A stretch of 64,000 nt of DNA from positions 23,066,001 through 23,130,000 of the forward strand of contig OU612073.1 in the NCBI GenBank assembly GCA_914767715.1, given 5' to 3'. Positions 18,691-54,399 of this stretch are shown here, piece by piece (position 1 is the first letter of the stretch; each line of letters starts with the position of its first letter). The notes beneath the pieces are model-generated. The model had not been told where the DNA came from. It did no database searches and worked only from the letters and a program-made list of their open reading frames with translations. This DNA is from Membranipora membranacea (taxonomy: Eukaryota > Bryozoa > Gymnolaemata > Cheilostomatida > Membraniporidae). Position numbers and translations under genes: made by a program.

Positions 18691-20120
18691 GCTTGTCTTT
18701 AAGAATTCCATTCGCTGTGCATAAGAGCAGTGGACAATAAGCATAAGCTACATACGAAACAGCTAGAATTTGGAAAAGAACAAGTCACCACTAGTTCACC
18801 ATATAGGATTAAAAATATGCATAAATAACCCGATGTTTGTGAACCCAAAAGGGTTCTGCCCACACCATGCATATGACAATGCTGAGCAAAACTGACCTTC
18901 AGGTGGTATTTTAGACATTCATTCCAGTGATATGTTGTTCTCAATTTTTATCAATGTCAAAGCGGTCTGAATATGGAATTATTGTCATTGTTTTGATATT
19001 TGTACAGCTACTTTACCTCAACAATTAGTAAAAGTCAAACACTAATATTTCTCTTTGATGCAAACAGATGAAAATACTAATACCCAAAAACAGGAAATAT
19101 ACACGAGAAAACAGCGCTCCGAAACTCAATACCTAATGCTTATTTTTAGCTTGCTTTGTCGCCTTGAGAAGTTTCGGATGGAGTTTATTTACAGAAAACA
19201 TCAAGTGTAAGACTTATGAATTTCGATTGATATATTATTCTGCCCTATCTTCTGATGTTCAGCCACTACTGTATAAACTTTGCTATTCATCTTTTCAGAT
19301 TAAATTACAAAGAAAATACATGAGATGGCCACAATGTCACAATCTTAGTGATAGGATGAATTTATTACTTTGTGATCTGAAGTCAACTGCACAGGCAATG
19401 AATCTTGTCTGATCCAGTAAAGATTATGATGTATCACAAGAAGTAAGCATATTATTTTCTCAATATTTTACTCACTTCGTTTATTTTTCTTTTTGTGCGG
19501 ATCTCTTCATCTAATGTATTCACTGCTCAATATGTCTTGTATTTTCAGAATTATGTTGATGCACATTGTATTTCTCTGCGGTATTGTGAGCATCGGTGAC
19601 GGGCTTGTACCTGATCGGGAGATAGAGGTGAAGAATAATAAGATGTTGGAGAATGAGGTAGAAGAGTTAAGATCTGGGTTCAGTAAACTCGTATCGGCAA
19701 TAAAAGTAAGCTTAGTTAACTATTCCTCTATTCAACTAGTGGGACAAAAATACCGATCTCTTTATATACCTGTTGTTATCGGTCAATGAAACTATAATCA
19801 GTGTTACTGTATAACTCTGATAGTGTAGATATCGGATAGTTTATTGGGAGAAGCCAATAGATGTCAGGAATTGATTGAAAAAACAAGAAGATTGGACAAC
19901 CCGTTATCAAGTTAGTTTCCCGGCCGCGAGGCCCTTGAATCTTCCTGAGGTAATAATAAATTGTGAGGATTACAAAGCTCATATCTGATAAATCTCTGGA
20001 TTTTCAAACATCCATTATATCAGTTTGGTCTGACATCAAGCACCCTCCTGATATATATATATATATATATCTATAGATACATATATATATATATGTCTGC
20101 CTTTTTCTTCTTTAAACTGT

Positions 20121-20393
20121 TACAAGTTTTGGTCAACAGTAGTATATCATTGAGAATCCTGTTACATGTTGGTCAGCAGTAGTATATTATTGAGAATCCT
20201 GTTACAGGTTGGTCAGCAGTAGTATATTATTGCGAATCCTGTTACAGGTTGGTCAGCAGTAGTATATTATTGAGAATCCTGTTACAGGTTGGTCAGCAGT
20301 AGCATATTATTGAGAATCCTGTTACAGGTTGGTCAGCAGTAGTATATTATTGAGAATCCTGTTACATGTTGGTCAGTAGTAGTATATTATTGA
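20121..20393 (+). repeat. 40-bp minisatellite, about 7 units, left copy
   Basis: The unit begins GTTACAGGTTGGTCAGCAGT and continues AGTATATTATTGAGAATCCT. It lies in the intron after exon 1 and is shared with the inverted copy at 58.2 kb. Each unit carries CCTGTTACAG|GT, an intron-acceptor-like sequence. Confidence 0.9.
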
Positions 20394-20769
20394 GATAAAT
20401 TAGTCATTTTGAACAATCAATGCCTCACTCACAGATAAAGCAGAAAGCACTGAATAAAAACTATGATTTATGCTGTATGTAGTTTAAGGGCTCGAAATTT
20501 GCCGGTTTGTGTTTGTAATTATCAACCACTTTCCCATCATTTGACCATGAACTGCCCTACTACCACCAACCCATAAGAAGTTTTTTTCATATTCACCTCC
20601 ATCAACCATTTTAATGATTTGACAAAAGTTTTATAAAGCTCTATATTATAGGCCTAAAGGAAGCAAATGAGAGTTTTTGTTGTCAAAGCTCCTAAATTTC
20701 ATTCAGTTAACGCAATTGATCTCTTACTTGGATATACAAACACTGGACTGATACGCTGAAAGAACCTTG

Positions 20770-20830
20770 TTACAATTTATAAGTTATACCCATAGATTTA
20801 AAAACAGTTTTAAATCTATGGTTATACCTC
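20770..20830. repeat. Short perfect-stem palindrome
   Basis: CCATAGATTTAAAA and TTTTAAATCTATGG, each flanked by TTATAC/GTTATA sequence, form a hairpin of about 20 bp with a tiny loop. Probably a MITE remnant; no coding role. Confidence 0.5.
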
Positions 20831-21119
20831 AATACGATAAAATATTAAAACCTGATCAATGAAATTAAGTTTTGGTAAGAAAGGTTATGTGATAGAAGCA
20901 GTCAATTGTTTTGAAAACAAACAAGATATTTTTGAGTAGGTCATTTAAATTGGTTGGTTGGCTTATTTTGTCAAAAACTCTAGGTATGCTGCGAGATTGA
21001 GTTTAAATACTGTTACATGAGTAGGGTACACAAAAAGGAAATATAAAAAGTGGATTAAGAAATATATTTTAATTTCAAAATCAATAATGTCTGAGGAAGG
21101 AGTCTTTACCCCAAGAAGT

Positions 21120-21720
21120 TCTGTATTTAAGGCTGGGATATCTGCCTAAGAAAAGGTTCTGAAGAAAATTGTAGGAAAATGTTCATCGTCATGTTTTTTT
21201 TGAAGGGCAAAGTTGTTAGTCAGTTTTGATATGACAGAATCTGGGCCCGCAATATCGAGACCTAGTCGTTCACCCTGTTTAAAAAACGTCCTCAGAGTTT
21301 TCTTGTCTCCCGTGATTGCTAGTGAACAAAATAGGTAGGCAGTAGGTGAAAATGGATACATTAAAGCTCTTGAATAACATGCAGGCTAAAGGCTTTGTAC
21401 TCTGATACTGAAAGCTTCTGATGACAATCATCCTCTGATTTGCTTTTGTTATAGTGTTATTGACATGATTTTCAAAATGTAATTTGTTATCAAAGAGAAC
21501 GCGAAAATATTTAACATTGTCACAAAAATCTAATTTTACACGATTTAATTCTAGGGCTGGACTGTCAGGTTTATTTCGTTTAATGGTGAAAAGCATATCT
21601 TGTGTCTTTGTAGGATTAAGTTATAAGTCGAGATCATCACATAGATATATACAATTATATATAGACTTACTTAGTATTGCATTAAAATCAAGGGTATTGC
21701 AATAGTACTTGCAAGCCTAA
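21120..21720 (-). mobile_element. LINE reverse transcriptase fragment (3' half)
   Basis: The minus strand encodes, across frame changes, LNPTKTQDMLFTIKR and then LDFCDNVKYFRVLFDNKLHF, RSFQYQSTKP and SIFTYCLPILF. This is the region after the catalytic loop of non-LTR reverse transcriptases (LNPxKT; YLGVxxDxxLxF; LpYCxxxW). It is truncated and frame-shifted, and lies in the first intron region of the left collagen copy; the right copy lacks it. Confidence 0.65.
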
Positions 21721-22156
21721 AAAATAATCCGGCAGTAATGCTTAATTGTTTTCGTCAAGTTTTTAGTATACATTGTTGATGTTTCTTTCTTGCAGTAGTT
21801 TTATAGTTATTTCTTTTTCTCTCGCAGACCTTGTTGGACTACTGAAGGGGAGAGATGGTAAGTGTACTATAAACAATAAAAAGCCAAATTATTTGTTCTG
21901 AAGCATATCTCTTTTTGAATGGTTCTAGTATTCACATTAATCGGACTGTAGGTTTTGCAATCTCTATATATTATTTTGATATTAATTTTTTATATAATTA
22001 TGCTATGATTGTATTAAATCTTAGGTAGAGACGGATTGCCTGGAGCTGATACATGTAGACATGTTTCCCAGAGCTATGAGGAAAATGTGAAACATTAAAT
22101 TCTTCCCACAGACAATGCATGTTATGGTCAGATATGCACGCTAAAAAATTCAATGT

Positions 22157-22369
22157 TCTACCTCGCATGAATTATTCATGGTGGAAAGACTGCCTCCTAT
22201 ATGGGAAGGTAACTCCCATTCTCCGCATGATGATGTAACTATGTACATGAATTGGTTGTTTCTTGTATTGGACATCCTGTTCATGGTGACATCATAATGC
22301 AAGGAATGAGAGTTACCATCCCTTATTGGAGGCATTCTTTCCACTCAGAATAATTCATGCAAGGTAGAG
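22157..22369. mobile_element. Fold-back MITE with ~90-bp inverted arms
   Basis: The left arm starts CTACCTCGCATGAATTATTC and the right arm ends GAATAATTCATGCAAGGTAG. Similarity continues for about 90 bp on each side (GTGGAAAGA, TGCCTCC, GGTAACTC, ATGATG all mirrored). It is inserted in the left collagen copy upstream of the FTAGGYHS exon and has no counterpart in the right copy. Confidence 0.7.
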
Positions 22370-23949
22370 CGTTTAACCTTTTAGCATTCAATTGTGACGT
22401 CACTTTATCCGAAGTAACTTCCTTTCTATAACATATATTGGTCTTTGGGTTACAGAAATCAGATATTTTTTTATTCTTCATCTTATTTTTGATTCACAGG
22501 ATTTACTGCTGGAGGTTACCATTCTCATAGTGGAGGTGGTGTTAATTACCAATGTCTGCCATTCAATCCTCAGTTTGATCAGTACACCCATACAGGAGGC
22601 TATTATTCCTGGATATACGGTACTGAGTATCAGACTTATGGTTACCCTAGCACAATTCCATCTGCAGCTCACGATCAGAATGTACCATGCGCTCGCTGCT
22701 ACTTGACACGCTCTGCTGTTTTGATGATCCCGACTCGCCGTGACTGCCCATCAAGCTGGTCTATGGGATATCATGGTGAGTTTATGGAAAGCAGACCATA
22801 GGTTCTATGATATATAAATTATTGTGTATGATTAACAGCTGGAAACTGCTGCAGTAGATACAATAATTCTTCTTTTACTCCTTGCAGGATATTTGATGAG
22901 TGCTTATTACTGTCACACCCATCCAGCTACTTATGAGTGTGTCGATGGATCACCTGAGTATGTAACGGGTCAGCAGGGGGATGTCCATGGTGCCTTATTC
23001 TACTTTGTGAAGACAGCATGTTCAGGAAGTGGTGCCATTGGCCATTGCCTTCCTTACGCAGACAACAAGTGGATACAATGTGTTGTTTGTACTAAATAGG
23101 TCAACGGAGAACCAAACCTGGGATCTTTTACAATATCGGGCTTTCTAACACTATATAATCAAACAGAATTAAAAATTTTCCATTATTATTCATTATTATT
23201 GTTGTGAGGAAGTTTTAACTATCAAGGTTGTTCCTGCCTTTCAATAATGATGAAACACTTGGCTTAAATAAGAGATTTCTCTGTTACACTAGCTTTGAAT
23301 TGTATTCAATATTATTCTATCATGAAATAAATGATCTTTCTGGCAAAATTTGCAACAACATTTTGCTGCAGCATCATCCATTGAAATGACGCAGGTTGTC
23401 ACGTGAAATGTTATCATTAAACTGACTTTCTCTCTAGGGCTGTTCCATGATGAAAACTTAGTGCTGCAAATAACAAGATGGATACGGCCCTTAGTAATAT
23501 CACCAATGCTTGATCCACAAGCTTGCATTAATGCAGATTTGCATTGTTCCTTTCTAAGGTGTTCGGTTGTTAGACAGGTTCTCAGGCAACTCTTCTTTCA
23601 TGTAAAGTTTCTCAAGACAAGTTAGTGGTTTGGAGCTGTATTTGTGGATAGCTCAGGATGTTGAAACTGACTACGTCATAAACATCTACGCCAAAGGGCC
23701 TTCTTGGGGTTGAATAAGATACATACATCTTTTAAAAATCAGTTGCAAGTGAAGTTGTTTACAAGTGAGCATAAATTTGACCTCAGACTGACTGGATGAG
23801 CTAAGTAGGGAGCTTGGGTATGGTAAATCACATGATTTGGATTCAGCGCATTCTCTTACTGCAGTATTTCCAGCCACTGTGCTGCACAGGATTGTTTTCA
23901 GTGTAATCAGCAATCAAATTTTGACTGCATCCCTTGGTTCCCGCTCTAG

Positions 23950-24170
23950 ATGACACAAACTTTATGGCACAACGTTATACCTCACTGAGATCTCCTGATA
24001 GGGTAATCAAGCATGTCAGAAAAGAGGGATATTGTAAATCTCACATCTACAGCCCAGAAATATCTACCTGTTCTCTGTCCTCAGAAGCTAAAGTAGTACT
24101 GAGTGACCAACCTGAGAAGGCAGCTTCAGTGAAAATGTGGTTTAGGAGAAAATTAGAGGTTGAATATGAA
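23950..24170 (+). pseudogene. PAN/apple-domain exon fragment
   Basis: After a TCTAG acceptor the frame reads DDTNFMAQRYTSL, HVRKEGYCKSH, then STCSLSSEAKVVLSDQPEKA and VKMWFRRKLEVEYE, clearly related to the PAN exons at 29.2 and 51.6 kb. It lacks the block with CAVNSSCAAYSYN, so three framework cysteines are gone, and the Thr-rich part is absent. No signal-peptide exon was seen upstream. Confidence 0.65.
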
Positions 24171-24555
24171 AAAACTTTTCAACGACTCCAACTACCGAAT
24201 GGAAGATTGGTCATTTTCTATAACCAAGACCTGAAGTTTTTATTTACATTCTATCATTTTCTGCAGATAAAACTGTGGGTTAATTGATGATAAACAATAT
24301 ACTCCACAGCATAAGATCTGTGGGGAAGGGAGGCAGTGGTCAATAAGCAATATGAGAAAAATGTAGCTTGATTCAATTTTTCAACACTGAAATTATAATA
24401 TTTGTAGACACTTGAAGATTTAGTAAAGTGGTATGTTGCATTGAGCTTACAGTTGATGTTGTTTATCAGTTGAGGCTGGTATGCCTGACACTCATTACCT
24501 ATCGCTAACAGTAATAGCTCAATAATTCCGCAGATATCATGCCAACTTTTTTTTT

Positions 24556-26424
24556 TACTTAGGGTGTTTCAATAGCCCTTCATTTTCCTCGTCAGTGTGG
24601 TTTGAAATCGCCCACTCTTGTGTTTCTCCTCTAGCAAATATCATAAATATTATTGCACCTACCATGAAGATTGCGGCCCAGATGTAGAACACCATCCGCC
24701 ATTCTTCTATTGTACCCTGTCAAACAGAACACATTTTCATGAAAAGAATTAATTTGTCCAGATGCCTCCTATAAATCAATCATTTCTGAAAATGAGAGCT
24801 GATTGGCTAGATCTTGCAGCGTGATGACATTTTGATAAACAAAGATAACAACAATTCGAGTAATCAAGTCATTTACGTTAGTGCCCCATGGGTTATGTAT
24901 ATCTTATTGAGTCTTTAATTTCCGAGTTGTCACCTCATGAAAAAAAATGTTGGCAGCAAAATATTTGGAAAACATGGGAGTGAACTGGTGACATTTAGGA
25001 AATTGATATCTCCACTTAATCATTTAATTTCTCCTCCAAATTTTTTCAATATTTTTCTGCAAATATTCTGCCTGTTTGCTGACTATTCTGAGATCCAAGC
25101 TTCATTCAGTAATCTGTGAGCTATACAGAATTCAATGATCATAACATTCTCAGGCTTGCAGCAGTGGTTAAAGGTTTCCTATTTCCTGGCTTTCCATTTA
25201 CTGCTTAGTGAATTTCAGCTTTATCAAAGAGTTTACATACAAAGCTGTTTGACCTTTGTTCTCTAGGGGTTTCCATTGATAGTAAACCGAACGAGTGATT
25301 GTGATATAATATTCTGTGTAGAACCATTGTAAGTAAAATTACCTACATACCTGTGGTGTAAGAGCATTGATAAGAGAGGGGGCTATCATCCCAGTTAGTG
25401 CTGAGAATGTGTTACAAACTCCGAATATTTCACCTGAGTATCTGTGAAAAAGAGCTTTTGTTTATCACTGTGGTCTACACCATCGCAATATTTTATGGCT
25501 AACGTAATTTAGAAACAGAATGCTCAATATGATATATAATGCATAGGATACCCTCGTAAAAATTTATGAGCACTGTAAGCGAACATAGTATGGTGAGCTT
25601 GGATGATACATACCTTGCTGCTATGTCCTGCATGTTGGAGCAGTAACCAGACGACCTTAAGCTCATCAAACTAACAGCTATTGTCATGAATACTATACCT
25701 AGATAGTTATGATTGCACGGGATGAATCCTGCTCCCACAAAAAATCCAACAGGAACTACCAAGGCTGCAGGGAATAAAGAGAAGTTTAAATGGTAAATAA
25801 TTCAGTTCAACCACTTCTATATGGCATCTTTGGGTATCCCAATTTTTCACATTGGGCATCTTTCAGGCACTGCAAATAATTTCTAAGGTTGCTAAGGTTC
25901 TTTGTGGTCACATTTTATCTGTTCTTCAATTATAATACTTGGATGTAAACACAAGACAACACAAGAAACTAACAGTATTAATATCGGTAGCAACGGGTAT
26001 AAGAAGCATGTATTTAGTGTGCTTCTTACCGACTTGATGTCCAAGCCTAATACCTCCTTCATATATGCTGGTAGTTTTGTATTTGCAGCATAGAAGCCAA
26101 AGTTTGTGCACATCATACAAACAGAGATAGCCCACACAGCCGGCGACAGCATTATCTGTCTCCAAGGAACTCTGATATTCTGAATTTAAACAGTCAAGGT
26201 AACCAATCTATTGTATTAAATACTGTAACACTGATAATAACACAAAACAAGACGTTTGAAGTATTTTGTTGTTCCTGGGAAGTCCTTTACAGTATACTGT
26301 CAACATTAAAACATCTATTTGAAAACCATTACAAAACCCAGTTCAGATAGTTGCGTTCATGCGTTTTATTACCTTTACACTGCCAATTTCGCAGTCGCTG
26401 TGCCGCTTTAGGTATTCAAGCTCC
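24556..26424 (-). pseudogene. SLC17-family transporter, C-terminal half, separated by inversion
   Basis: Minus-strand exons: 26373-26424 (ELEYLKRHSDCEIGSVK), 26030-26179 (NIRVPWRQIMLSPAVWAISV...LPAYMKEVLGLDI), 25614-25764 (ALVVPVGFFVGAGF...GYCSNMQDIAAR), 25351-25441 (YSGEIFGVCNTFSALTGMIA) and 24556-24716 (EEWRMVFYIWAAIFMVGAII...ARGETQEWA). These are classic SLC17 features: PW..I..S..VWAI, LP.YM..VLG.DI, GYxxNxxDIA.RYSG, W..VFYI...F and the terminal FARGETQEWA. Exon 26030 ends in phase 0 but exon 25764 opens in phase 1, so an exon (normally the NG.LSALPY / RK region) is missing between them. The 5' end stops at a MITE; the matching N-terminal half is on the plus strand at 31.7-34.2 kb. SLC17 proteins carry organic anions, often with Na+ or H+. 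Confidence 0.85.
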
Positions 26425-26840
26425 CAGTGGCGTATATTAGCACTCACGGCCCACGGATTTCCGTGAGTGGCTGAATAGCTCAGTGTGTAGAGCGTCCGCT
26501 TTATAATCACTGAAACTAAGATTGTCCTGGGTTTGAATCCCATCCAGGTCAGTTTTTTTTTCAAATGGGTGCTTTATAACTGGAGCATTTTTACCGTAAT
26601 CTTCTACTGCTATTGAGTTGTTTTCTGAAAGTACCCAACAGCTCAGTGAGCTATTGAAATACCTCTCTGCTTGCACTATTTTGCTACCGATACGCAAAAA
26701 TTTCCGTGGTGGGAGGGCGCTTAAGCGCCCCTCCCACACCCTCCCCGCCACGCCTACAGCGTGTGGATCGGGCTGCGCCCGATTATTATGCTCATCTCTG
26801 AAAAGTCAGTGAGTGAAATTTTTTAGAATATACGCCCCTG
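26425..26840 (+). mobile_element. hAT-like MITE copy 1 carrying a tRNA-like module
   Basis: The left end is CAGTGGCGTATATTA and the right end AATATACGCCCCTG, imperfect terminal inverted repeats of about 14 bp. About 416 bp, non-coding, near-identical to the inverted copy at 34165-34574. On its left lies CAAGCTCC, the reverse complement of GGAGCTTG found beside copy 2. CAG-type ends and 8-bp duplications are typical of hAT elements. Confidence 0.85.
26469..26550 (+). other. tRNA-like module within MITE copy 1
   Basis: GGCTGAATAGCTCAGTGTGT followed by AGAGCG matches a tRNA 5' part with D arm (GCTC...GAGC) and A box. GGGTTTGAATCCC matches the T arm and B box about 50 nt further. The acceptor stem pairs only partly and the sequence between anticodon and T arms is long, so this is a tRNA-derived pol III promoter rather than a functional tRNA. 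Confidence 0.6.
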
Positions 26841-28380
26841 GCTTATATTGGAGGTTCACTTCAATATCCAAGAAATTGGGAATAAGTCTCAATTCGATTT
26901 CCTTTCAAAATGTAATGCCAAAGTGAAAAAAATTTCTATTGCAATACTCAGCCCTAATCTGAGGGAAAAAATCGCATTTAATTCACTGTGAATGTATTCA
27001 ACTATGTGAATAAGAACTTATCAATGACATTAGTAAGATTTTGTTATTGTAATTTCAGCCATATTCTAATTTTAAATGTTCTTAGAAATAAGACACAGAT
27101 CAATTTTAATTATTTGTATGGAAGTTCTATTTCCAGCGGCTAAAAATTTGATTCCATGTTGTGAAAGTGGAACGGTATTTGTAGCAAAACCAAAATCTGA
27201 CTATTTACTTGCGACTAACAATCCGGGAATATGTGCCCAGACTGAGACCATACTAGATCTTAGTGTAAATGACAAGTTCCTACTGACTATACCTTTCCCG
27301 ACACGACAGCATTGAGTTATTATATTCACAATGCTAAAAATTGTACCAGTACTTCTTTTTTTTGACAACACTATTGCTACAATTTTTAACTATTTACCAA
27401 TTCACATAAGATCAAGTCCATCCATACCACATTTTAAGAGATCTTCCAGGTTATATTTCTCAATTATGCATCAACATCTGTATTTTTTTCTTCAAATATT
27501 GATCGGGTTATTATGAAAAACATTCTCAACAAATGAGTATTTTCCTGAAATAAAATAAACATTTGAATTGCGCATTCAAATTTATTTTTTGAGTAACTCT
27601 AGGCATTTCATTCTCTGGCAGTCAGTCGAAAATCTTTCCTTGTTTTACCAATAACGATAAGCCAAAATCTCAACCGCAAACACATCATTGTGATAAAATC
27701 GGAATTACCTGGCTACATACCTAACAAGTATCCCTAATTTTCGTTGGCTCCTAGTTTTTAGGGTTGATTCCCATCTCCTCCCTACTTCTTTTTTCATCCC
27801 TATTTTCAGCTTCATTCGCTCAGAATTCTTTTAAAGCCTCCTCTTGCAAGGGAAGCTGTGTTTTCCTACCCCTTACCGCCCACACCTATGTATCTGCTTA
27901 TTACCATTACTGCCTAGAGAAATAACTTTCGCCGATGATTTTGAGTACTGCATTGTATACTCTAGAGTAAATAATAATTCAACACAGGCACAAGAAGGCT
28001 TAACAATTGCCAGCTGTACAGTTATACTTTCAATTCAGTTTGCAGATTCGCTGATACTTTTGACTCATTTGTCTCCTCACATAAACGGTCCTCAGAAACT
28101 CCCTTATGCATCTTAAATTATCCAATATACCTATAACTATCATAAACTACCCGGGGGATTAGCGCACTGCTCACTCATTTGCTCAATTACCCCTTGAACG
28201 CACTCACCTCAATTGGATATGCAGTATTCGACCAAATCAAAGCTCACAAAATTCAAGGCCACTTGAATCAGCATAAAGAAATTGCTTGACCGACATCTCA
28301 ATATGTTTCTTTTTAACGTTGTTGATAACTTTGATAGTGGCGTAACCCTTGATATCTTTTTTTTGTCGATTTGTTAAAGG
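26841..28380. other. No gene recognised (inside the inverted segment)
   Basis: Some open stretches, for example 27076-27315 on the plus strand, but no recognisable domain and no splice-consistent neighbours. Confidence 0.35.
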
Positions 28381-28389
28381 TTTTTGATT

Positions 28390-28665
28390 TAAAAGCGATA
28401 AAAAAATCTTTCAAAATGACCATTGATTGGATTTCTATTTGGCTTCAAAACGGAGACCTTGCATTTTCTGCAGATGGAACTAAGTCATCTTGTCCCCCAA
28501 AGGGGGGCTGTCATGGTTTACTTCTATTTTCAGTATAAATATTAAATTATATGCATGACAGAATGATACGTTTGTATGCTGATGATTCAATACTCTACAA
28601 ACTCATTCATAAGCCATCATATGAAAAACTTCACAAAGATCAAATGAAATTTGATGTCACAAAAT
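28390..28665 (+). mobile_element. LINE (CR1/jockey-like) reverse transcriptase fragment
   Basis: Reads WISIWLQNGDLAFSADGTKS, then CPPKGGCHGLLLFSV, a stop, and MIRLYADDSILYKLIHKPSY. This matches the consecutive RT motifs W...FL..R.Q.V..DG..S / SGVPQGxVLGPLLF / RLYADDxxLY with one stop. Only ~90 codons survive. Confidence 0.7.
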
Positions 28666-29243
28666 TTTAGCATTCTAGGCCCTACCAATTTTTCAGCAGT
28701 TCAATTTTGAAAAAGACACTCAAATTGCCATCAGTATTAGGAAATTAGGTTGACTCTATTCATGCTCATCGTCAATAAGGAGTAGGGCTATTGTCTTATT
28801 GAGAGGAAATATGAAGGGTTTATACTGATAAAATTCATTGTCAACAAGTTCATGACACTTCACCCTAAAAAGTATTCTGGTTCGAAATGTTCACATTTCT
28901 CTTTGTTGATCAGTGAATTTAAAATTGCTGTCAATTTTTCCAAAAAAGAAACTGCCTATTTTTCAAAAGAGCGAAGGGAAGGCCTCACGGCGCCCCTTTT
29001 TTGTCCACCCTGCCTGTCCTTACCACTTGAAAACTAATGGATACAGCCAAGATAGCACTTCTGGTTAAAAGAATTTTAGTGTTAGAAATTCACTCCTGTT
29101 GGCTGAATAAAATGAAATACTCACTGTATTATTACAAAGAAATATGAAAAATTCCTAATTGCAATGCTACACCTTTTTGCAACTATTCAACACATGCTGT
29201 TAATGTTATGATTATTTAAAAAAACCAAAGACTTATTGCTAAC

Positions 29244-30043
29244 CTGCAGTAGTTGTCTCATTTGCAGATATTGTAGCTACATCCTCTGTATTTGACTGGA
29301 GTGTAGTTGCCTCTGCTGTAGTTTCCGCTGCTGTAGTTGCTTCTGCCGGAATATCCTCTGCTTCAGTTGTCTTTAGTGTAGTCGCATCTGCTGTAATTTC
29401 CACTGTCGTAACTATTGGAGTTGGCGTGATATTTTCATAATCAATGACTAATTTATGTTTAAATGACATTTTTACTGAAACTGATTTAACAGGATGATCA
29501 CTCAGTTCTACTTTAGCTTCAGAGGACAGAAAGCAGGTAGATGTGTCTGTGTTGTAGCTATAGGCAGCACATGATGAGTTTACTGCACAGTGTGTTTTAC
29601 AGTAGTCCTCTCTTCTGACATGCTTTATTTGTTTATCTGAGGATTTCAGGGAAGTGTAACGTTCTGAGATGAAATTTGTGTCATCTAGGTGGAAAGACAG
29701 GAGAAACAAATATCATGATCAATTTTTTCAAGACCATCCTGGTTGTGAGTGCAGCTGCATTGAAATATCAAGTACATCAACAACAAAATAAATTAACTAT
29801 GAAGATTATCTTGTGTCAACTTTCATCAACGGAATCCATGAAACGATGCACAAATACTATACCAGAAAGCATTGAAACGACACATTTTTGTTTTCTTAGC
29901 TTGATTCAGTGTATCCACCGACATACAATTATAAAAAAATGATAAATGTTAATGCGAATAACCAGATACTCACAGCAAAGTGCCTCTCCATTCACCATAA
30001 AAGATATATACACCAGAAGGATATATGATTTGATGAGAAGCAT
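29244..30043 (-). CDS. Secreted PAN/apple-domain protein with Thr-rich tail; 3' exons not found
   Basis: Exon 1 (29974-30043) encodes a signal peptide, MLLIKSYILLVYISFMVNGE, then ALC. Exon 2 (29244-29684) follows in phase: DTNFISERYTSLKSS, a PAN/apple-like core (YCKTHCAVNSSCAAYSYN...STCFLSSEAKVELSD) and a ~65-residue Thr/Ala/Glu-rich linker. The donor is CAG|GTTAGC in phase 1, the phase at which the complete relative at 50.2-53.5 kb splices to its C-type lectin exons. No lectin exon was found downstream (lower coordinates) as far as the MITE at 26.84 kb, so this copy is probably truncated. It lies within the inverted segment. Confidence 0.65.
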
Positions 30044-30189
30044 AGTTGCTACCGCCAGAAAGAGAAGTATTATCTATCAATCCTCAAATGCACGCTATGA
30101 CTTCAGTATCCTGCGCATGTCACATATTCGACGTGATTAAATTGCATTCTCATGTCAGAGCAATTGGACCAAGTAATGAAATTATCCAA

Positions 30190-33100
30190 TATCAGTTAAT
30201 TTAAGTTCAGTGGTATACCCCTGGGAAAACTTATAAAATTGAAGCGCAAAAACTTCCCACACACCCTTCAAACTACTGACAGGAATTATAAAAGACCTGC
30301 TGAGAACCTAAGCCATCATTAATCTTCCATCAATAATGTGACAAAGGATTGAATAGAATAAACAATTAATTTAAGTTCTAAGCATTTATGGCAACTCAGT
30401 CTGCTGCCACATTCAGAGCTGCTTCTATGGTAGTTGATTTGTTTGTTAAAAGCAGACACATTAGTCACACTTACTGTGAAAACTTGACAGTACCCTGATA
30501 TTCATGATAAATCCTATTTATGCTAAAATACATGAAGGGCTATAAAGCTCATGTTGCAATGATATAAATATAACTTCTGCTTACCATTGGGATTTGTCTG
30601 CTTATCATGTAGATCAGGGCAACTCCTTGACCATTAAATCCCTTGATTTCTTGTACAAATTTTCTGCCCTATTGTTGTCTGATAGTAAGCCTTATATAAA
30701 TGGTTGTAAGCTATTGCTATTGTGTTACTTCCAGGCATTGCTCTCAGGCTAAGCGTCTCTGTTCTCAGGCTAAGGGTCGATTCTGAACACATGCCCAGAC
30801 CTGTTGATGCTGGGATTTTCTGTTATCTGAACCTTTGATCTGCTTATAAATTGTATGTTTGTATGAATTGTTTTCTTCTGTTTCATTTGTGTTCTGGATA
30901 TTCAAATACCATCATCACAGAGGCAGCTTAAATAAATGATCAATTTATTGTTGTAATTATGGGTAAATTTCAATTATCTCAACCAAAACATTAAAACAAA
31001 ATATTTTTTATCTCGCACCATGTTAACACCATTTCATCATTTGTGATATATTAAGGTTGCCAGTTCTTTGGAAAATACAATCTTAAACATCTTAAACTTT
31101 TTATCTCCATGTCTGATGGCGTTCTCAGTTTAAACATCAAGTGATAACGATCATGGTATTCAATGACTTCATGATTAAGAAAGGGGACCAAATTGAATTC
31201 TTCAAGCTCTGCCATCAGGATACCCGCAAAGCATCCTGGGTAAAGGTTCTCAACGGCATTAAAAAAAACTTCCCCTGTCAATTACTGCTGCAGGATGATA
31301 AGTTTTCTGTCCTATGAGATTCGAATAAACCACAGGTATGTTTTACACACCACTATTATTTGTTGTGTGTTCTATAATATCTGTTTGATACAACCTGTCT
31401 GGTGGACTCATGCCAGCAGATCTAAAACTAAGGAATGCAATTATGTAGTTAGCCAGTTTTGCTGGTATTGTTTAAGAGCATGCAAATACCTCATGCCATG
31501 TTATTGGACCTGGGTATGGCTCATAGAAATGTTGTGTATTTAATTATAGTAAGTTACAATTCGCTTGTAATGTAACTCATCTTGTTTCCGGCTCTGAAAG
31601 TTTGAGTTCAGTCAGGATTGTCCCCACAGATGATTTTACCAACAAGGGATCACAGAAAGTTCCTCACTTAACTTATATCTCTACTGAGAATGATGAGTAA
31701 AGATGAGGAAGATACAGGCGTCAAAATGCACCAAAAAAAGATGTATGGAACAGAATCAGCCAATGGAAGTACAGAGTATGTAGGTGAGTTAACGTATTCT
31801 GTTACTAGCAATCAGCAAAAACCAAAAACTGATATGTTGTCGCAATACACTCATAATACATCTGGGAAAGTTAGCATGAGGATCGTCATACCAATAACTC
31901 TTCAAAATATACCATGATATATTCATATTATGGAACGGTTTTTGATGTCGAAGCTATGCACGGTAAATTATCTCTCTTTTCTCCTAGATAATTATAAAGA
32001 GAGCACATTTGAGATGTTGGCGTCATCAAGATGGATAGTTGGCTATATGAGTTGTCTATGCTATGTTCTGATGAATGCAATGAGGAACAGCATGACTATA
32101 GGCATAGTTTGTATGGTCAAGGCAACTAATCTTAGTTCTCACTCTGAACATGGACATTCAAGGATGGGTGGAGCATGTTTTAATCGGCAGCAAAACAACA
32201 CAACAGTGATAAAGGTTCAGATGAGAAATTAAATGATAGAGTTGATAATATGATCTGGCATTGGCTACAAGATGAACAGATGAGTTTTTAGAGTCGCTGC
32301 TAGTAGATTGTTCAATCAACATGTATTTTCAACTGCGGAAGCTGCAGGAAGCCAAGAATAGTCCCGCAGCAATCAGTTTTCTACCCTCAAACTGAAGTGG
32401 TGTGAAAGTTGCACCTTTTTCAACTTCTTGGTTAGCCAATTGTTATGAGTCTTGTAATTATGCACATGCTTTATTGTGTATCAGATTTATAGTCTGTCGT
32501 TTCATGCAGATCATTGCATTTTCAGTAGGCAACAAAGCATGTAATGAGACATTTATCACAGTTTATAGATATCAACTTAATCCCTAATTTATTGAGACAT
32601 TGACAATGATTGGGTTGTAGAATTTTGTTACTATGCTTTTCCCTCGTTTGATCATATTTTAGTATTTTGTTTGGTCTTAGTCAACGATGTTCTTTTATAT
32701 TTCATATAAAACTTTCAAAAAGAGATCTTATTTTCAGAACAGCCAATCACTGGGGGAAATAGAATGGGACAAGGCTACACAAGGCTGGGTACTGTCAGCT
32801 TTTTACCTGGGATACCTGTTAACACAGTCTATTTCTGGTGTACTCGCTGGCAGATACGGAGGGAAGAGAGTTCTGATGGTTGGAGCTTGTGTGTTCACAG
32901 TCTGTATCCTTCTTACTCCTACTGCTGCTAGGTAATTAGAAATTATAGGGAATCTGATTAGGACAGACTGACCTGTTGGGAAAATCTTCACTGTTGAACA
33001 AATAATAAAAAAAACCTGAGAAACATGTACAACATGTCCACTTTCACTTCTCAGGATGGATAGTAAGAGCTCGAACATATCTGCAATTCTCGTAATCATA

Positions 33101-34030
33101 CTGAGAGTAGTATCTGGTATGGCGAGTGGTGCAATTGCACCTTCAATAGCTAATCTTCTGGGTAGATGGCTGACTGTATATGAGCGAAGTAGGATGGTCA
33201 CTTTGGTATATTCTGGTCAACAGGTGAGTTATATGATTATGTTCTATACTGTCAAAAAAAAATTGTAGGAATTGACTGAACTACTGCAGCTGGTGATGAT
33301 ACCTCAGATTTTTTTCAGGGCTTCAAACATGACACTCAAATAACGGCAGGCGCAAAGAAAAATTTAAAAATTCTTTGACTAGAAATATAAAAAAATAACA
33401 ATAATGTTAAAGACAACAGAAAGGCCATGGCAATATAAAGTTCAGCAGCTAGGACTGCAGCAGTTTTGCGATATTTTGACACTGAAAAAATTCATAGCAC
33501 GCCTGGGTAAGGATTACGTGTGGCATTAGAAATTGCCCCTCTTTTTCATTTAGGCGTCTAGGAGGTTTTGAAACCTAGTGCTGTACCACCAACAAATGCT
33601 ACAACTTCCAAATATTTTTAATTACTTATTATTTCCAAATAGTTTAAAAAATAAATATATTTTCAGTTTCAGAAACATAATACAATACTAGATAACTGAG
33701 TCCATCAACCTTCACAGCTCGCTAAAGTTGATACAAGTGGTAGCATATTGCGCTGGCATAGCAGCAAGTTTTAATATCTCACAGATGCAATTGATGGAAA
33801 AGGGGGAAAATTCCCAACACTACATATAATCTTTACCAAGAATGCTATGAGTTTCTTCAGCGTCAAAATATTGCATAACTAGTGCAAAAATAGCTGCAGA
33901 CTATATATTGCTTTGGTCCTTCTGTAACCTTTATGATTGAAAATAATATAATCATATATTTCACATTATGTTTTGAAATTAAGATGGGTAACATACTGAT
34001 ATTGAGTGCAGGAGGTGCAATGTGTGAGTG
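30190..34030 (+). repeat. Direct duplication, copy A
   Basis: Paralogous to 38370-43330 in the same orientation, including non-coding blocks (ATACATGAAGGGC at ~30530 and ~38610; GATTCACAGAAAG-type flanks) and the SLC17 5' exons. Copies differ by many substitutions and several insertions, so the duplication is not recent. Confidence 0.75.
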
Positions 34031-34164
34031 GAGGGCTTTTGATGGTGGATGGCCCAGCTTGTTTTATATAACTGGAGGTTTAAGCATCATCTTCTGTCTT
34101 GCCTGGTGGCTTACAGTCTATGATTCACCAACTGAGCATCCCAGAATTTCACTCAAGGAGCTTG
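31690..34164 (+). pseudogene. SLC17-family transporter, N-terminal half, interrupted by a MITE and inversion
   Basis: Plus-strand exons: 31690-31783 (start MMSKDEEDTGV), 31988-32220 (WIVGYMSCLCYVLMNAMRNS, TIGIVCMV), 32738-32931 (DKATQGWVLSAFYLGYLLTQ, GRYGGKRVLMVGA, LLTPTAAR), 33055-33223 (ILRVVSGMASGAIAPSIANL, ERSR) and 33984-34164 (MGNILILSAGGAMCE, GGWPSLFYITGG, VYDSPTEHPRISLKEL). These are SLC17 hallmarks in order: GW.LSAFY.GYL.TQ, R.GGK, LTP.AAR, P...L..RW....ERSR, GWPS.FY..GG and YDSP..HPRIS. The donor after exon 2 is ATGAGA where copy B has GTGAGA; an upstream GTTCAG could substitute in frame. The last exon stops within codon GAA at the MITE; the continuation E-YLKRHSDCE lies on the opposite strand at 26.42 kb. 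Confidence 0.85.
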
Positions 34165-34574
34165 CAGGGGCGTATATTCTAAAAAATTTCACTCACTGAC
34201 TTTTCAGAGATGAGCATAATAATCAGGCGCAGCCTGATCCACACGCTGTAGGCGGGGAGGGTGTGGGAGGGGCGCATAAGCGCCCTCCCACCACGGAAAT
34301 TTTTGCATATCGGTAGCAAAATAGTGCAAGCAGAGAGGTATTTCAATAGCTCACTGAGCTGTTGGGTACTTTCAGAAAACAACTCAATAGCAGTAGAAGA
34401 TTACGGTAAAAATGCTCCATTTATAAAGCACCCATTTGAAAAAAAACCGGCCTAGATGGGATTCGAACCCACAACAATCTTATTAACTGTGATTATTAGA
34501 CGGTCGCTCTACACACTGAGCTATTCAGCCACTCACGGACATCTGTGGGCCGTGAGTGATAATATACGCCACTG
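34165..34574 (-). mobile_element. hAT-like MITE copy 2, inverted relative to copy 1
   Basis: The ends are CAGGGGCGTATATTC and AATATACGCCACTG. About 410 bp, near-identical in reverse complement to 26425-26840, including GC-rich GGGAGGGGCGC and the tRNA-like module (34449-34530, minus strand; B box GGTTCGAATCC is canonical here). It is immediately preceded by GGAGCTTG, part of the SLC17 coding exon. Confidence 0.85.
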
Positions 34575-36240
34575 TAATCGACGATGCTCGGATAAAGGAA
34601 ACAATTTTTTAATTTTCATTTTAATGGGAGTTGTTCCCTCACAAATTAAAATAGGATTACTCATAACTATTTTTCTACATCTTCTTTATGAGATAAAATG
34701 TTATGGTAGATAATAAGTCCATTCTCCTTGGTTGGACATGAATGAACCTTGGTTACAAGCAGATGCACATGAACTACCATCTGAGAGCCCCGAGCGTGTT
34801 TTTTGTGAAGTTTGATCCATGGAAACAAAAACCTGTGTGCCTAGACAATATGGTGTGCCATGTGAATATTTTGTCTTATATATATATACACACACATATA
34901 TATCAATGCATATATTTATTTATATGATGTAGGCATTGGCAAACAAGTTTGATTTATTTAACACAATGGATAATCAGTAGAATATGGCTACAGCAGATCT
35001 ACTTAGCTCTTTTTTATTTTATTCGTTGACCCCTCCTTAATACCATAGGTAGTAGGCAGCCCACTGTATGTATAGATAGATACTGTTTCACCTGCTGGCT
35101 AGATGGAAAAAAGAAGGTTACGTTTATAGAGGTAGGATAATGGCTTTTGGGTACCCAGGCATAGTTATAGTTATTTTATTAATTGATTTCATTACTAAAA
35201 AGGCAAATCATGATAACTCAAAAAATTCATCTGCTGGCTCCTTACCCTGTCTTGACAAGCTTTGCGGGCGTTTGCCATGCTCGTTCAAGACAAAGCACTT
35301 TGAAGACATCTATTTCAGAGAGTAAACAATAACAAATCAATAAAATTTTAGAGGATAACGGATCCCATAATGCATATCTATGGAATTCCCAAACCAAAGT
35401 ATTGAGAATTTAGAATTTAACTTAAATTTTATAAGGAAACTCATATATTATGTAACCATGGCCATTAACAATGAGCCCCTTGGTAACAAAGCGATATTAA
35501 ATTCTGTAAATTTGCAGTTGCACTATCATAGACCTGCAGTCCACAGTCAAGGTCCCTGCCAATAACTCAAATTTATTCGACCAGGATTTGAGTTTAAAAA
35601 CTGCATTTCAGTCTACAACCTATCGTGGTACATTCAAATTTTTATAAGGCTGTAAACATTGAAAAACGACAAGCTCAAAATCTTGTTCAAGGGTGCTCGG
35701 GCACTCTAGATTACACAGTGATGAAAAAACAATTGCCATTACGCAATGCAATGTTCTAAAGTCGCCACCTATTGTATGCTAATGATTCATATGGTATCCA
35801 TTTTTGGTTTTATTATCATCAAATTTATATGAAAACCATGAAGTTTCATCTTGGGAAAAGCTCCTTAGTCAGTAGATAAAGAATAAGTCATAAAGAGATG
35901 AAGCGGTTCATGCATAAATGATTTAATATTTTTCCCCATTTCTGATATTCCAAGTAGTGTAAAATCATACTTCAAGCATAGCCTATATCAAACATGACGG
36001 TATATTTCAAGCTTGACATGTAGAAGCATCCCGTATAAGACAGCAGTAATGAACTCTGAGGTTAAAAGTTTTATCATGATCCTAGGAAGTTCAAAGTTTT
36101 TCTCTGATAGAAATTGGTTCAATATCCTTAATATTTCAACTCCCGTAGTGTTTTGAAACCTGTATCCTCTACCAATTGGTATGTCACTATATCTGCTAGA
36201 TGTTGATTAACGTCCATTTTATGACAGCGTTGCTTTTTTT
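34575..36240. other. No gene recognised
   Basis: AT-rich sequence with a short TA/CA microsatellite at about 34876-34905. No exon chain seen. Confidence 0.4.
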
Positions 36241-36249
36241 TTATGTGTG

Positions 36250-37990
36250 TTTATTGCTTACTATAAAAACTAGAATGAGTAAAACGGTATCAAAGGTATA
36301 TAAAAAGTTAAAAAGCAATGGGACAGTCAGATAGCACGAAGCTAGAGCAGAGACTGCCCAACTAGAACTCTCGACGCCACACTCGCCCGCCGGAACGACA
36401 GAGCGAAACATCCGCAACCTGCACACAATCAAACCCCCTCCCACAGGCGCGCCGCCAGGCCACCCAAAGAACCAGACTGAGTACATGTCTCCACTCCCAT
36501 AAGGTACACGTTGTACAGGTTGACACCATGGCACAACAGGGACCTCTCACCTCGCTTGTTTTTGGCCTTTGTTCGTAAATTATTTAATCTTGTGTTATAA
36601 TCATGTTCTGATTTGAGAGAGTTGATAAACTCATTCGAAAATGTTCTTAAGAATAGTTTTAAAGAGCAGTATTGGAATAGCATATTCGAAGGCATTATAT
36701 TTAAAGTCTTAAAAAGGGTTGAAACATGATCTCTGGTTTTTTCTTTAAAATCACTCTTACACAAGCTTTTTGGAGGACTATTACTCGTTTAAGGTCATTT
36801 TCAGCAGCATGGCCCCAGAACTCTATTCCATAGAGAAGGTGCGGGTAAAATAATGAGTAATATAGTTCGATCATTGTTTTTTCGTCAAAATATGGCCTCA
36901 CTACACGCATCATTATTACAACCAAATTTAATTTTTTGCACAATTCATTTATATGCGACTTAAAAGTAATATTTGAAGTAAGGATAATACCTAAAAATTT
37001 AGTTTCATTTTTCAGTTCAATGGTGTTTGTATTCAGTTGGATAACATGATCATCGGCACTGATAGCCTTTCTTGGGGATTTAAAAATTACCTGAAAGGTT
37101 TTTGAATAGTTAAGTACTAGTTTATTAGCTAAGCACCAATTTTCAACTTTGTTTAATTCTTGACTTAAAATAGCATGGTCTACAGGCGCTGCAGTCAAGA
37201 GGTCGTTTATGTAAATCTAAAATAAAAGCGGCCCAAGGTTTGAACCTTGGGGTACTCCAATGTTGATGTCACGGTACTGAGATACAGCATTATTTACAAT
37301 AACATATTGTTTACGGTTTTTGAGGTAATTTTCGATGAGAGATGTGGCACAGGATAAAAATCCATTAAACGGTAGCTTTTTGACTAAAATTTCATGATTA
37401 ATAGTATCAAACGCCTTTGAAAAGTCTGAAAACATGCCAAATGTGCTGTTGCAGCGATTAAAATTTTCAAACAATTGTTCCATGAGCTTGTTTATAGCAG
37501 TGGTGGTATTTCTGCCTCTTCTAAATCCAAACTGGCAGTCGGTTAAAATTGAGTTGGTCTCTAAAAAATCAATTATCTGGTTACTAAGAATTTTTTCAAC
37601 AATTTTAGAAATAGTGCTTAAGATTGATATTGGGCGATAGTTATTAGTACTTGTTTGTCCCCTTTTTTAAAAATGGGTGTCACTAGTGCAACTTTTAAGC
37701 AGTCTGGGAACACAGAATTTTCAATGACCAAATTTACAAGATATGCCAATATTGGGAGGATAATCAGCTTGTTTTCTTTGATCGCTCGTGACGAGATTTT
37801 GTCCGGACCAGTGGCTTTTTTGGCTTGGAGATTATCCACAATGGGCAGGATATCAGTGATATCAACAACATAAAAAATGAATTTGGGTCTAGAATCCCAC
37901 TCAATTTGAGGGGCAAAATAGTAAGCAAAGTTAGCGTTTGTGGGAGGCAATTTGTCGGCAAGATCCGCATTAATTGATTCTGAGGTAACA
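36250..37990 (-). mobile_element. LINE with defective reverse transcriptase
   Basis: The minus strand encodes RT motifs in order: LQAKKATGPDKISSRAIK, TPIFKKGDK, SDFSKAFDTINHEILVKKL, IGVPQGSNLGPLLF, a stop (TAG), IYINDLL, and then directly VENWCLANKLVLNYSKT, TKFLGIILTSNITFKSHI, PHLLYGIEFWG and finally the HDYNTR motif of the C-terminus. The catalytic (F/Y)ADD segment, expected between IYINDL and the LNxxKT block, is deleted, and there are frame shifts. It cannot encode an active RT. No 5' ORF1 or endonuclease was recognised. Confidence 0.85.
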
Positions 37991-38164
37991 ATAAAAAAAG
38001 TGAAAAAAATGATTCAAATAACCTGAAAAATACTCAACAATTATCCATAGCACATTATTAAACCGTTGATATTCAACTCCCCACCGTGTTTTTAAGTTCG
38101 TAGGCTCCTCTCTACATCCAGCAACATATCAACATCACCAATTTGCATCAAATGAGAAGACAAC

Positions 38165-38345: not shown

Positions 38346-40776
38346 GGTTCAACACACCCCTTTCACTATTGACAGGCAAATTAAGATGGAAAACATAAGA
38401 GCATCATTCATCTTCCATTAATAATGTGACAAAGGATTGAATACCATAAACTAACTATAACGGTTCTAAGTCTGCTGCCAGGGTCACAGCGGCCTCTATG
38501 GTAGTCAATATGATTGTTTGGAGCTGATATAATGTCTACACTTATTGTAAAAGATTGACAATATGTTCATAATGTTCCCTATACTTTGTTGCCCTAATGC
38601 TAGTAATACATGAAGGGCCATAAAATTCCTGATGTACAGGATGCACAGGGCAATTCCTTGATCGCAAAATATTCACTCTGACTATATGTACTATCGATAT
38701 TCTAGGATTACAATCCCTTGATTTTGTATATAATTTTGCTGGTCTACCCATGGTTTGATAAAAGAGCTGTATATAAATGTTTGTAAGTTATTTCTAGGCA
38801 CTTCACTTACGAGCTTTAATCTCAGGCTAAGGGTCTGATATGAATGTGAACTCTTTATTAGTCATCAATCTTGTGTTTATAATCAAAACAAATTTCTTCG
38901 TTATCTTATGCTGATGTGTCTCAGGTTGGAGGACTCTTCTGATCTGTTATTGTCTTATGGCCTGTGAGAGTGAAAGATGCTGAAACACTTCAGCAGATAA
39001 AATCAGTTTGAACATCGAGCCATACTGATTAAGGAATTAATTAAATTCATAACTAAGAAAGGGAACCAAAGTGATTCGTTCAAGCTCTGCCAACAGGATA
39101 TATGTAAAGCATTTTGGGTAAAAGTTCTCACTGGCATTAAATGAACAGTTCTTCTGTTCAATACTGCCGCAGGATGATGGAAGTTTTGTGTACTATGGAT
39201 TAAGAATTAACCACACAAATGTTTTACACACTATTATGCCTATGTGGAATCATTTTGTGTCTGTTGAAACCAATGTATTTAGAATGGCCAAGAGTGGCTA
39301 AATATTCTGATGTGTCATTCTCAGTGCAAAATAAATTTAAGTTGGCACCATCGACATACAATTTGAGTAGAATTAATCTGCTTCACCATATACATGCTAT
39401 CACCTAATCCCCTATCACTGGTGTCATTGGCATGCTCTGGTGATAATCATCAAAATTAATCAACCTTAAATCCGTTCTCATCACTGCAGTGTTAGGCTGT
39501 ATATATATAACCATAATAATATGTTGATGATGTGCTTTCATGCATGATGTCTTTCTGGTCAGCTTGAAAAAACTTAAGAAGTCCATTGGCGAGGCACTGT
39601 AATGTTAAACTAACACATCGACAGATTGATCATAAATACACTTTTTTCATTTCTAAGTCACCTTTGAACAGACTAATAATTACATCAAGTAGCATACCAT
39701 CACACATTATTTCTAAATATTCTAATACAGTTTTTATATGCAGGTTTTTCATAATATCACATGTGATAGGGGAAGGCTAGTTGCCTGTAACTTCGGTATG
39801 TGATGGTATATATAATTGGCTGTTGTTTTGAAGAATTGCAAGCGCAAGCAGATTATAAATATGCTGGAGGGTTTTGAGCTTGTTGGTGCTCATGACCTAA
39901 ATATAATGTAATGCAAAATTTGATAAAGACTACAATATAAGTTCTTTATCAGCACATGCAACAACCCCTTATCAGTTTCCTGCTTTGATTCCCTTGTTGA
40001 GGAGAAATATGTGTCTACGCCCCTTGATCGCGGTCAGTAATGTCTACTGTAAGTGTTGACTTTACTAACATTGCAGTATTTGTTGTGTTCTATAATATCT
40101 GTTTGATACAACCTGTCTGGTGGACACATGCCAGCAGATCTAGAACTAAGGAATGCAATTATATTGTTAGCCAGTTTTGCTGGTATTGTTTTTGAGCATG
40201 TCAATACTTCATGCCAAGTGGTCAAGTATGTTATTGGTCCTGGGTATGGCTCATAGGAGTGTTGTGTTTTTAATTATAGTAAGTTACATTTCGCTTGTAA
40301 CGTAATCCATCTCACTTCCGGCTCTGAAAGGTTGAGTTCAGCCAGTATTGTCCTCACAGATGATTTTGCAACCAGGGATCACAGAAAGTTTATAACTCAA
40401 CTTGAATCTCCACCTAGAATGATGAGGAATGAGGAAGATACAGGCGTCAACATGCACCAAAAAAAGATATATGGAACAGAATCAGGCGATGGTAGTACAG
40501 AGGATGTAGGTGAGTTGGCATATCCTGCTACTAGCAACCAGTAAAAAACCAAAAACTTATATGTTGTTGCAAGACATTTATAATACATCTGGGATAGTTA
40601 GGATGGGGATCGTCACACCAATAACTCTTTAAAGTATAGCATGATATGTTCATATTGTGGATTTGTTTTTGATGGCCATGCTATTCATGGTGAATTATCT
40701 CTCTTTTCTCCCAGATAATTATAAAGAGAGCACATTTGAGATGTTGACATCATCAAGATGGATAGTTGGCTATATG

Positions 40777-40937
40777 TTGGTTAAAATGTTGGTTAAAATG
40801 TTGGTTAAAATCCCAATGGTTAGTCACTCTCCACATTGTGGCGGTGAAATAGTGTGCCTTAAGGGTGAGGCTGCAATGTCTGCGCCAATTTGCTCTCAGT
40901 TTGTAGGCAGGTCGGAGCACACCTGGGGGCCAACATG
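40777..40937. mobile_element. 161-bp insertion in a coding exon
   Basis: Relative to copy A, 161 bp are inserted after TATATG, starting with TTGGTTAAAATG twice and a third TTGGTTAAAAT, and ending CCAACATG. The final ATG duplicates the target ATG. TTGG/CCAA ends are weakly inverted. No coding potential related to transporters. Confidence 0.6.
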
Positions 40938-42583: not shown

Positions 42584-43117
42584 AGTGGCAGACAACCCTG
42601 GTTGCAATAAATACGAATCAAGATGCAGTTCACTTTCATCGGTAGACAATATACTCAACAGTAAAAATCCGAGGTATAATCTCTGGTTCTGCACAACAGG
42701 GCAGTCAGCAGCCCCTTAACCCCATGGCTGCAATAAACTGAATTAAATTGAGAAGCTATGTTTTGTTTATAATCTCTAAATAAATGCTTTGTTTTTTTAT
42801 TGTAAGCAATAATATTGGTTTTGTAGATTTTGTAACTGAGATGACTTTTTTTTGTATTAAGATTGACACTAACAAAAGACAACTGCTTCAATTCTTGAAG
42901 ATAGTTCCTTTATATATCTTTTTTCCAATGATATATTTTTTGGAGAGTGTGGCTATTGCAGTTACTGAAACAAAATGGTGGAAGAGAGCTTGCAATTGAA
43001 ATAATTAATATTTTCTAATTTAATATTTATTTATAACAAGCAAATTTAGAAGGAGCAGGTAGCCTACATCGTTACGCATCATATATCAAAATATAACTTA
43101 TGTGGTTGTCTTCTACT
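42584..43117. mobile_element. TTAA-flanked MITE with a preserved empty site
   Basis: A 534-bp element has ends AGTGGCAGACAACC and GGTTGTCTTCTACT (12 of 14 positions complementary), flanked on both sides by TTAA (42580-42583 and 43118-43121). The equivalent position in copy A (33771-33774) has a single TTAA with matching flanks. TTAA duplication is typical of piggyBac-like elements. Interior non-coding. Confidence 0.85.
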
Positions 43118-43334
43118 TTAATATCTCACAGATGCAATTTATGGAAAAGGGAGAAATTCCTAACACTAAATATAATTTTTTACAAAGAGTGCTATGAGTG
43201 TTTTCATAATATTGCTTTGGTCCTTCTGTAGCCTTTAAGCTTGAAAATGATATAATCATATATTTCACATTATGTTTTGAAAGTAAGATGGGTAACATAC
43301 TGATATTGAGTGCAGGAGGTGCAACGTGTTATTC

Positions 43335-44535: not shown

Positions 44536-44539
44536 TTGA

Positions 44540-50220: not shown

Positions 50221-50224
50221 GCCT

Positions 50225-53542: not shown

Positions 53543-53559
53543 AGTTACTTTTATATGAA

Positions 53560-54390: not shown

Positions 54391-54399
54391 TGGTGCCCT

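Follow-up and report, generated by a model that had tools for sequence, protein, structure and literature searches.

An SLC17 transporter gene of Membranipora membranacea divided by an inversion between two MITEs, probably through reversed-ends transposition

We examined a stretch of 64,000 nucleotides from the bryozoan Membranipora membranacea (assembly GCA_914767715.1, contig OU612073.1, here C9; C9:23066001-23130000), hereafter the window, in which an SLC17 (sialin-like) gene was interrupted inside one exon. Genome-wide searches covered 339,339,785 bases in 18 contigs. The two halves of the gene lay on opposite strands, and a miniature inverted-repeat transposable element (MITE) adjoined each. 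The N-terminal half (31690-34164, plus strand) consisted of exons at 31690-31783, 31988-32214, 32738-32931, 33055-33223 and 33984-34164, and the C-terminal half (24555-26424, minus strand) of exons at 26424-26373, 26179-26030, 25764-25614, 25441-25351 and 24716-24555. Splice sites of all ten exons, five on each strand, were ordinary, except at the cut itself. There the coding sequence was divided between ...HPRISLKEL and ELEYLKRH..., and the 8-mer GGAGCTTG was present at both edges. One copy, read on the coding strand, occupied 26417-26424 (minus) directly against the end of the first element, MITE1, and the other occupied 34157-34164 (plus) directly against the end of the second, MITE2, this being the opposite end to the one used by the first copy. 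For 8 bases to agree by chance at a given position has a probability of about 2.6e-5 at this base composition.

When the halves were joined at a single copy of the 8-mer the reading frame was kept, and the joined protein matched PF07690 (MFS_1) with an E value of 5.4e-44. Its best relatives were two sialin-like proteins of another bryozoan, Watersipora subatra, with 42 and 44% identity. Reading from the N-terminal half into MITE2 met a stop after 11 further residues. The C-terminal half had no start and also lacked a 44-residue exon between 26030 and 25764 that is present in a paralog, where the corresponding stretch measured 597 bases as against 218 in the window. Therefore, a full-length transporter is no longer encoded at this locus.

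The nearest SLC17 paralog, which itself contained stop codons, was found at C9:25431976-25436703, 2.3 Mb away. Its locus (PP, C9:25421001-25437000) aligned to the window as ten collinear plus matches (27020-27275, 27274-27323, 27611-27715, 27920-28774, 28959-29335, 29384-30630, 32479-32977, 33024-33237, 33269-33398 and 33940-34164, window coordinates), followed by four minus matches (26424-26017, 25798-25325, 24938-24859 and 24762-24555). The two matches that meet at the cut placed PP 12656-12878 on window 33940-34164 (plus) and PP 12871-13274 on window 26424-26017 (minus), and thus had exactly 8 paralog bases in common, which read GGAACTTG there and GGAGCTTG in the window; the twelve further matches beyond these two kept the same order. 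PP also matched the decayed N-terminal half described below and other PAN copies in the window. As the paralog matched the window in one line with an exact 8-base overlap, it gives the ancestral order and a single target site. The paralog is the empty site, and the 7324-bp segment 26841-34164 is inverted. Elsewhere in the genome, 8 more SLC17 matches likewise had alignments that crossed the cut, reaching query residue 303 or beyond.

An earlier reading of the same DNA, made from the sequence only, had proposed that one SLC17 gene ended at MITEs at 34164 (plus) and 26424 (minus), that the gene sides of both elements carried the same 8-mer and restored the frame on joining, that 26841-34164 was a real inversion with a MITE at each breakpoint, and that an 8-bp target duplication had been divided between the breakpoints. 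All four points were borne out by the paralog alignment and by the 8-mers themselves.

A second SLC17 copy in the window was relevant to the original layout. This decayed copy (38352-43329, plus strand) comprised an upstream region and an N-terminal half at 40.1-43.3 kb, with one stop codon and a 158-bp insertion in exon 2, and it ended 42 bases into exon 5. Today it stands in direct orientation to the first N-terminal half, and turning 26841-34164 back makes it the mirror image of that half. This symmetry serves as support only, since the outer arms of the region form part of a duplicated family that extends more widely, and one PAN copy departs from the simple mirror. The two N-terminal halves had a nonsynonymous to synonymous substitution rate ratio (dN/dS) of 0.56 and were 94.3% identical in exons as against 81-86% in introns, a pattern suggesting past constraint, with no bearing on the present.

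Several features of the decayed copy and its surroundings are recorded here as observations in their own right. The insertion in its exon 2 (40777-40934) had GTTGG/CCAAC-like ends and a 3-bp repeat (ATG) and may be a further small transposon that entered an SLC17 exon. The exon in which the copy stopped, after 42 bases, is the one hit by the MITEs in the first copy. Beyond the copy, in the interval 43329-51200, lay retroelement-like sequence that matched DUF5641 at 44543-45091 and that we take to be BEL/Pao-like. Between repeat Q (described below) and the decayed half was a reverse transcriptase fragment (36701-38013, minus strand; RVT_1 match at 37217-37666), presumably of the long interspersed nuclear element type. 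The outer arms, at 18749-24172 and 51707-60692, were inverted gene blocks (collagen-like and PAN/lectin-type) on either side of the SLC17 copies, their separate pieces being about 70-96% alike, and the collagen block recurred once more outside the window, at 86.0-95.3 kb in window coordinates. The duplicated blocks had in common a 40-bp tandem repeat (20117-20395 and 58220-58382), which was strongly expanded at about 88.9-91.2 kb, outside the window.

We considered whether the divided gene could be an assembly artefact, or the halves of two different genes. Repeats at both breakpoints and a second N-terminal half nearby are circumstances in which misassembly might arise, and the arrangement was read from the assembled sequence. 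HiFi long reads, however, are far longer than repeats of about 0.4 kb. No N was present in the window or in the 100 kb on each side of it (264 kb in total), and the assembly was built with such reads at 66-fold coverage (PMC10290214). An overlap of exactly 8 bp between the two paralog matches, and the restored mirror symmetry of the N-terminal halves, argue against an artefact and against two genes. We regard this explanation as highly improbable.

The two elements were similar in length and sequence. MITE1 (26425-26840, plus strand, 416 bp) had its L end, CAGTGGCG, against the C-terminal half and its R end, CCCCTG, against a dispersed repeat designated R. MITE2 (34165-34574, 410 bp) was inverted, on the minus strand, with its R end against the N-terminal half and its L end against a second dispersed repeat, Q. 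Ends of the family read CAGTGGCGTATATT and AATATACGCCCCTG. Genome searches gave 1332 candidate places with MITE1 and 1203 with MITE2, and 40 of each were scored. A set of 38 other copies was compiled from 27 of the 39 non-self matches listed, 10 more of another 39 listed, and one copy (LX) from the 264 kb; most of these are closely related to MITE1 and MITE2, and they do not form a random sample of the family. Within this set a perfect 8-bp target duplication flanked 34 of the 38 copies, and two more (L009 and L054) agreed at 7 of 8 positions. Copy L007 had a 7-bp repeat in shifted register, and LX had no duplication. As 34 of 38 copies had a perfect duplication, the lack of one is unusual. 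LX (L047; 145715-146122 in window coordinates, beyond the window) was near full length with flanks CATCAACG and GGCTTGAG, and could mark another rearrangement junction. Because of the 8-bp duplication and the CA...TG ends, the transposase was probably of hAT type.

The sequence-only reading had called both elements tRNA-bearing, which is a generous description. MITE2 scored 33.6 bits against a cut-off of 29 with the Rfam tRNA model, at 34448-34530 (minus strand), but MITE1 was not listed as a match, none of 6 other copies reached the cut-off (run with faster filters), and ARAGORN reported no tRNA in the window, nor in any of 12 further MITE copies. Perhaps the family once took up a tRNA gene, or a tRNA-derived short interspersed nuclear element, that has since decayed.

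MITE1 and MITE2 were 93.3% identical, and differed from the family consensus by 8 and 17 substitutions, respectively, MITE2 being the more diverged. Five variants of MITE1 (91A, 103C, 122C, 130T and 270C) also occurred in copy L002, whereas a 5-bp deletion in MITE2 was found in L049 and L050, and its 17T, 301T and 347A in L051. As the two share variants with different family copies, they are, judged by sequence, two separate members of the family. This bears on hybrid-element insertion, in which sister copies of one MITE act together and which would produce this geometry and likewise divide the target duplication (PMC2775673). Such an event expects identical MITEs and one donor site; these two were 6.7% apart, shared variants with different family copies and lay in different repeats. 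On account of the differences between MITE1 and MITE2 this candidate was dropped, its probability being close to negligible.

The alignment of the two elements was also suggested by the sequence-only reading as a check for exchange between them. No clear half-swap was seen, a weak test in that the last 59 columns contained no differences and a crossover within them would leave no trace; the make-up of MITE2 was mixed, as described below.

The outer flanks of the MITEs provided the evidence on how the inversion arose. They were unlike one another, as the sequence-only reading had noted, with GTCGATTA and GCTTATAT equal at 3 of 8 positions. To the right of MITE1 lay the right part of repeat R (26841-26993), which stopped at the end of the element and whose first 8 bases (26841-26848, GCTTATAT) were presumably its former target. 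To the right of MITE2 lay the right part of repeat Q (34575-36230, the right limit being approximate), which stopped in the same way at the end of the element, with the presumed former target TAATCGAC at 34575-34582. We examined 10 other copies of each repeat, picked from matches that reached, or nearly reached, the start of the query, with copies starting further in left out. By blastn, all 10 of the R copies continued leftward past the point corresponding to 26841, and all 10 of the Q copies past that corresponding to 34575. Mean pairwise identity in the final 90 alignment columns of the absent parts was 0.847 for R and 0.865 for Q. A search for the left parts of R and Q gave no match in the 264 kb around, and neither repeat matched the paralog locus. 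As R and Q are cut exactly at MITE ends and their left parts are absent from the 264 kb, MITE1 once stood in R and MITE2 in Q; these are two separate former insertion sites, and the DNA that lay between them is gone.

A neighbouring lectin-type gene told the same story. In the paralog locus a PAN exon (PP 5974-5648) is followed by two lectin-type exons (PP 3604-3458 and 2838-2560). The corresponding PAN exon in the window, that of copy B (29365-29688, minus strand), lacked the next two exons, which both the paralog and copy C have. A second set, expected just past 26841, was sought across the 264 kb, and only the set of copy C was found, at 50.2-51.5 kb. We take the two exons to be of C-type-lectin kind; Pfam gave no match at 50225-50602. 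The absence of the two following exons from copy B supports a loss of intervening DNA.

These flanks decided the fate of a two-step history, in which one MITE entered the exon, another inserted elsewhere, and a single crossover between the inverted copies turned the segment around. Such a history accounts for the divided 8-bp duplication and for inverted MITEs at both breakpoints. Recombination between inverted copies is described as leaving exchanged duplications and chimeric copies (PMC2775673, PMC3355041). Both duplications should thus be exchanged, yet one pair was exact and the other agreed at 3 of 8 positions. Recombination in that order also requires the outer flanks to be both sides of one insertion site, the site of the second MITE, but they were unlike remnants of two repeats with their other halves missing, and a further loss, falling precisely at the end of a MITE, would have to be assumed. 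Simple recombination was therefore dropped on the flank data, and we consider the two-step history very unlikely. The sequence-only reading had favoured this order, with the insertion and the flip as separate events, while doubting simple recombination. The doubt proved justified; the order did not hold, and given the remnants of R and Q and the DNA missing between them, insertion and flip are better read as one event. It had further supposed that the second MITE's own duplication was gone or that the mechanism was something other than simple recombination. That duplication is indeed absent, and we read it as lost together with the intervening DNA.

A single event of the required kind has been described in maize, where reversed-ends transposition inverts a flanking segment, leaves an 8-bp duplication at its ends and loses the fragment between the elements (PMC8225341, PMC9910405). 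In the un-inverted order the two MITEs here are directly oriented, and the ends that face the lost segment are the L end of one element and the R end of the other. It is these two ends (L of MITE1, R of MITE2) that are now joined to the halves of the SLC17 exon, against the duplicated target. We consider it quite likely that one reversed-ends (alternative) transposition made the inversion, divided the duplication and removed the segment between the elements. In this mechanism, two MITEs of the same family would have stood in direct orientation upstream of the SLC17 gene, one (E_a, now MITE1) within R and the other (E_b, now MITE2) within Q. The segment S between them would have contained the rest of R, two exons of the neighbouring lectin-type gene and the rest of Q. 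A transposase acting in trans, probably of hAT type, would have treated the facing ends (L of E_a and R of E_b) as one element, cut them off from S and placed them in the SLC17 exon, at a distance of 7.3 kb. Because each MITE would have remained linked to its outer flank, the stretch from E_a to the target would have flipped, the target GGAGCTTG would have been duplicated at the two junctions, and S would have been lost. That a single transposition did all of this, that the enzyme was of hAT type, and how the lost state was laid out are matters that we infer.

The strongest competitor has three steps: recombination between two direct MITEs, one in R and one in Q, deleted S; a third MITE entered the SLC17 exon; and a crossover between inverted copies then flipped the segment. 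This history yields an identical final structure, accounting for the cut ends of R and Q, the missing exons and the divided 8-mer, and recombination between transposon copies has made natural inversions in Drosophila (BuT5, PMC3355041; Galileo, PMC2775673). The mixed make-up of MITE2, together with a base shared by both elements at column 335, would fit an exchange. It requires, however, three MITE insertions and two recombinations within one 8-kb region, and no clear half-swap was seen between MITE1 and MITE2, weak though that test is. Because more events are needed, we rank the three-step history below the one-step transposition and hold it to be unlikely.

Besides the identical outcome of the three-step history, several observations weigh against the one-step transposition. 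Copies L049 and L050 lacked most of the other variants of MITE2, and L051, which matched it at both ends, lacked the deletion, so that the make-up of MITE2 is mixed. The rare base at column 335 was present in both MITEs and in 1 of the 38 others; it lies at a CpG and may be shared by chance or possibly by exchange. LX, 1 of the 38 ordinary copies, is likewise without a duplication. Of 150 matches to the hAT dimer domain listed in the genome, 6 loci were examined, and a transposase with the family ends (CAGNGGCGTATATT) was found at none of them. Finally, neither the pre-inversion chromosome nor the excised S was seen in the one assembly.

An exon with a paralogous empty site, together with two repeats cut at MITE ends, is what makes the mechanism readable from sequence at this locus. 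The signature, one shared duplication and two truncated outer targets, is applicable to any MITE-rich genome, and such a scan would show what share of rearrangement comes from transposase and what share from recombination. Bryozoan genomes are reported to be extensively rearranged (PMC13326412). It is conceivable, though we think it doubtful, that pairs of abundant, non-autonomous hAT-like MITEs routinely undergo reversed-ends transposition in this lineage, breaking genes by small inversions and deletions and adding to the scrambling of bryozoan gene order.

Inversion by alternative transposition is known mainly from maize Ac/Ds experiments and from a transgenic rice system (PMC3470690). Non-standard transposition has been reported for impala in Fusarium and for Sleeping Beauty in mouse transgenes (PMC8225341). 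In our literature searches on alternative transposition and on transposon-flanked inversions we found no natural animal case with the same signature, although one may be in print; the transposon-flanked natural inversions of animals described in PMC2775673, PMC3355041 and PMC12368964 are ascribed there to recombination. The Galileo inversion 2z3 of Drosophila buzzatii (PMC2775673) is, like the present one, natural, with opposite transposon copies at both breakpoints. There the duplications were exchanged and both copies were chimeric, whereas here one duplication was exchanged, no clear chimerism was seen and target halves were lost. Inversion 2s of D. mojavensis (PMC3355041) resembles ours in having MITE sequence, of BuT5, at both breakpoints and an exchanged duplication, but in that case both 9-bp duplications were exchanged, which is the expectation under recombination, and one copy was only a footprint; here one duplication was exchanged. 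Inversions in Atlantic cod (PMC12368964) also have hAT-group MITEs at natural animal breakpoints; they are large-scale, involve tandem arrays and are credited to recombination, and neither 'TSD' nor 'target site duplication' occurs in the text of that report. A close likeness is with the Ac/fAc (hAT) elements of maize, for example the p1-wwB54 inversions (PMC8225341, PMC9910405), where direct elements with facing ends gave an inversion, an 8-bp duplication and loss of the DNA between the elements, as here. The present case differs from those in being natural, in an animal, in involving two short non-autonomous elements, and in being inferred from the finished product.

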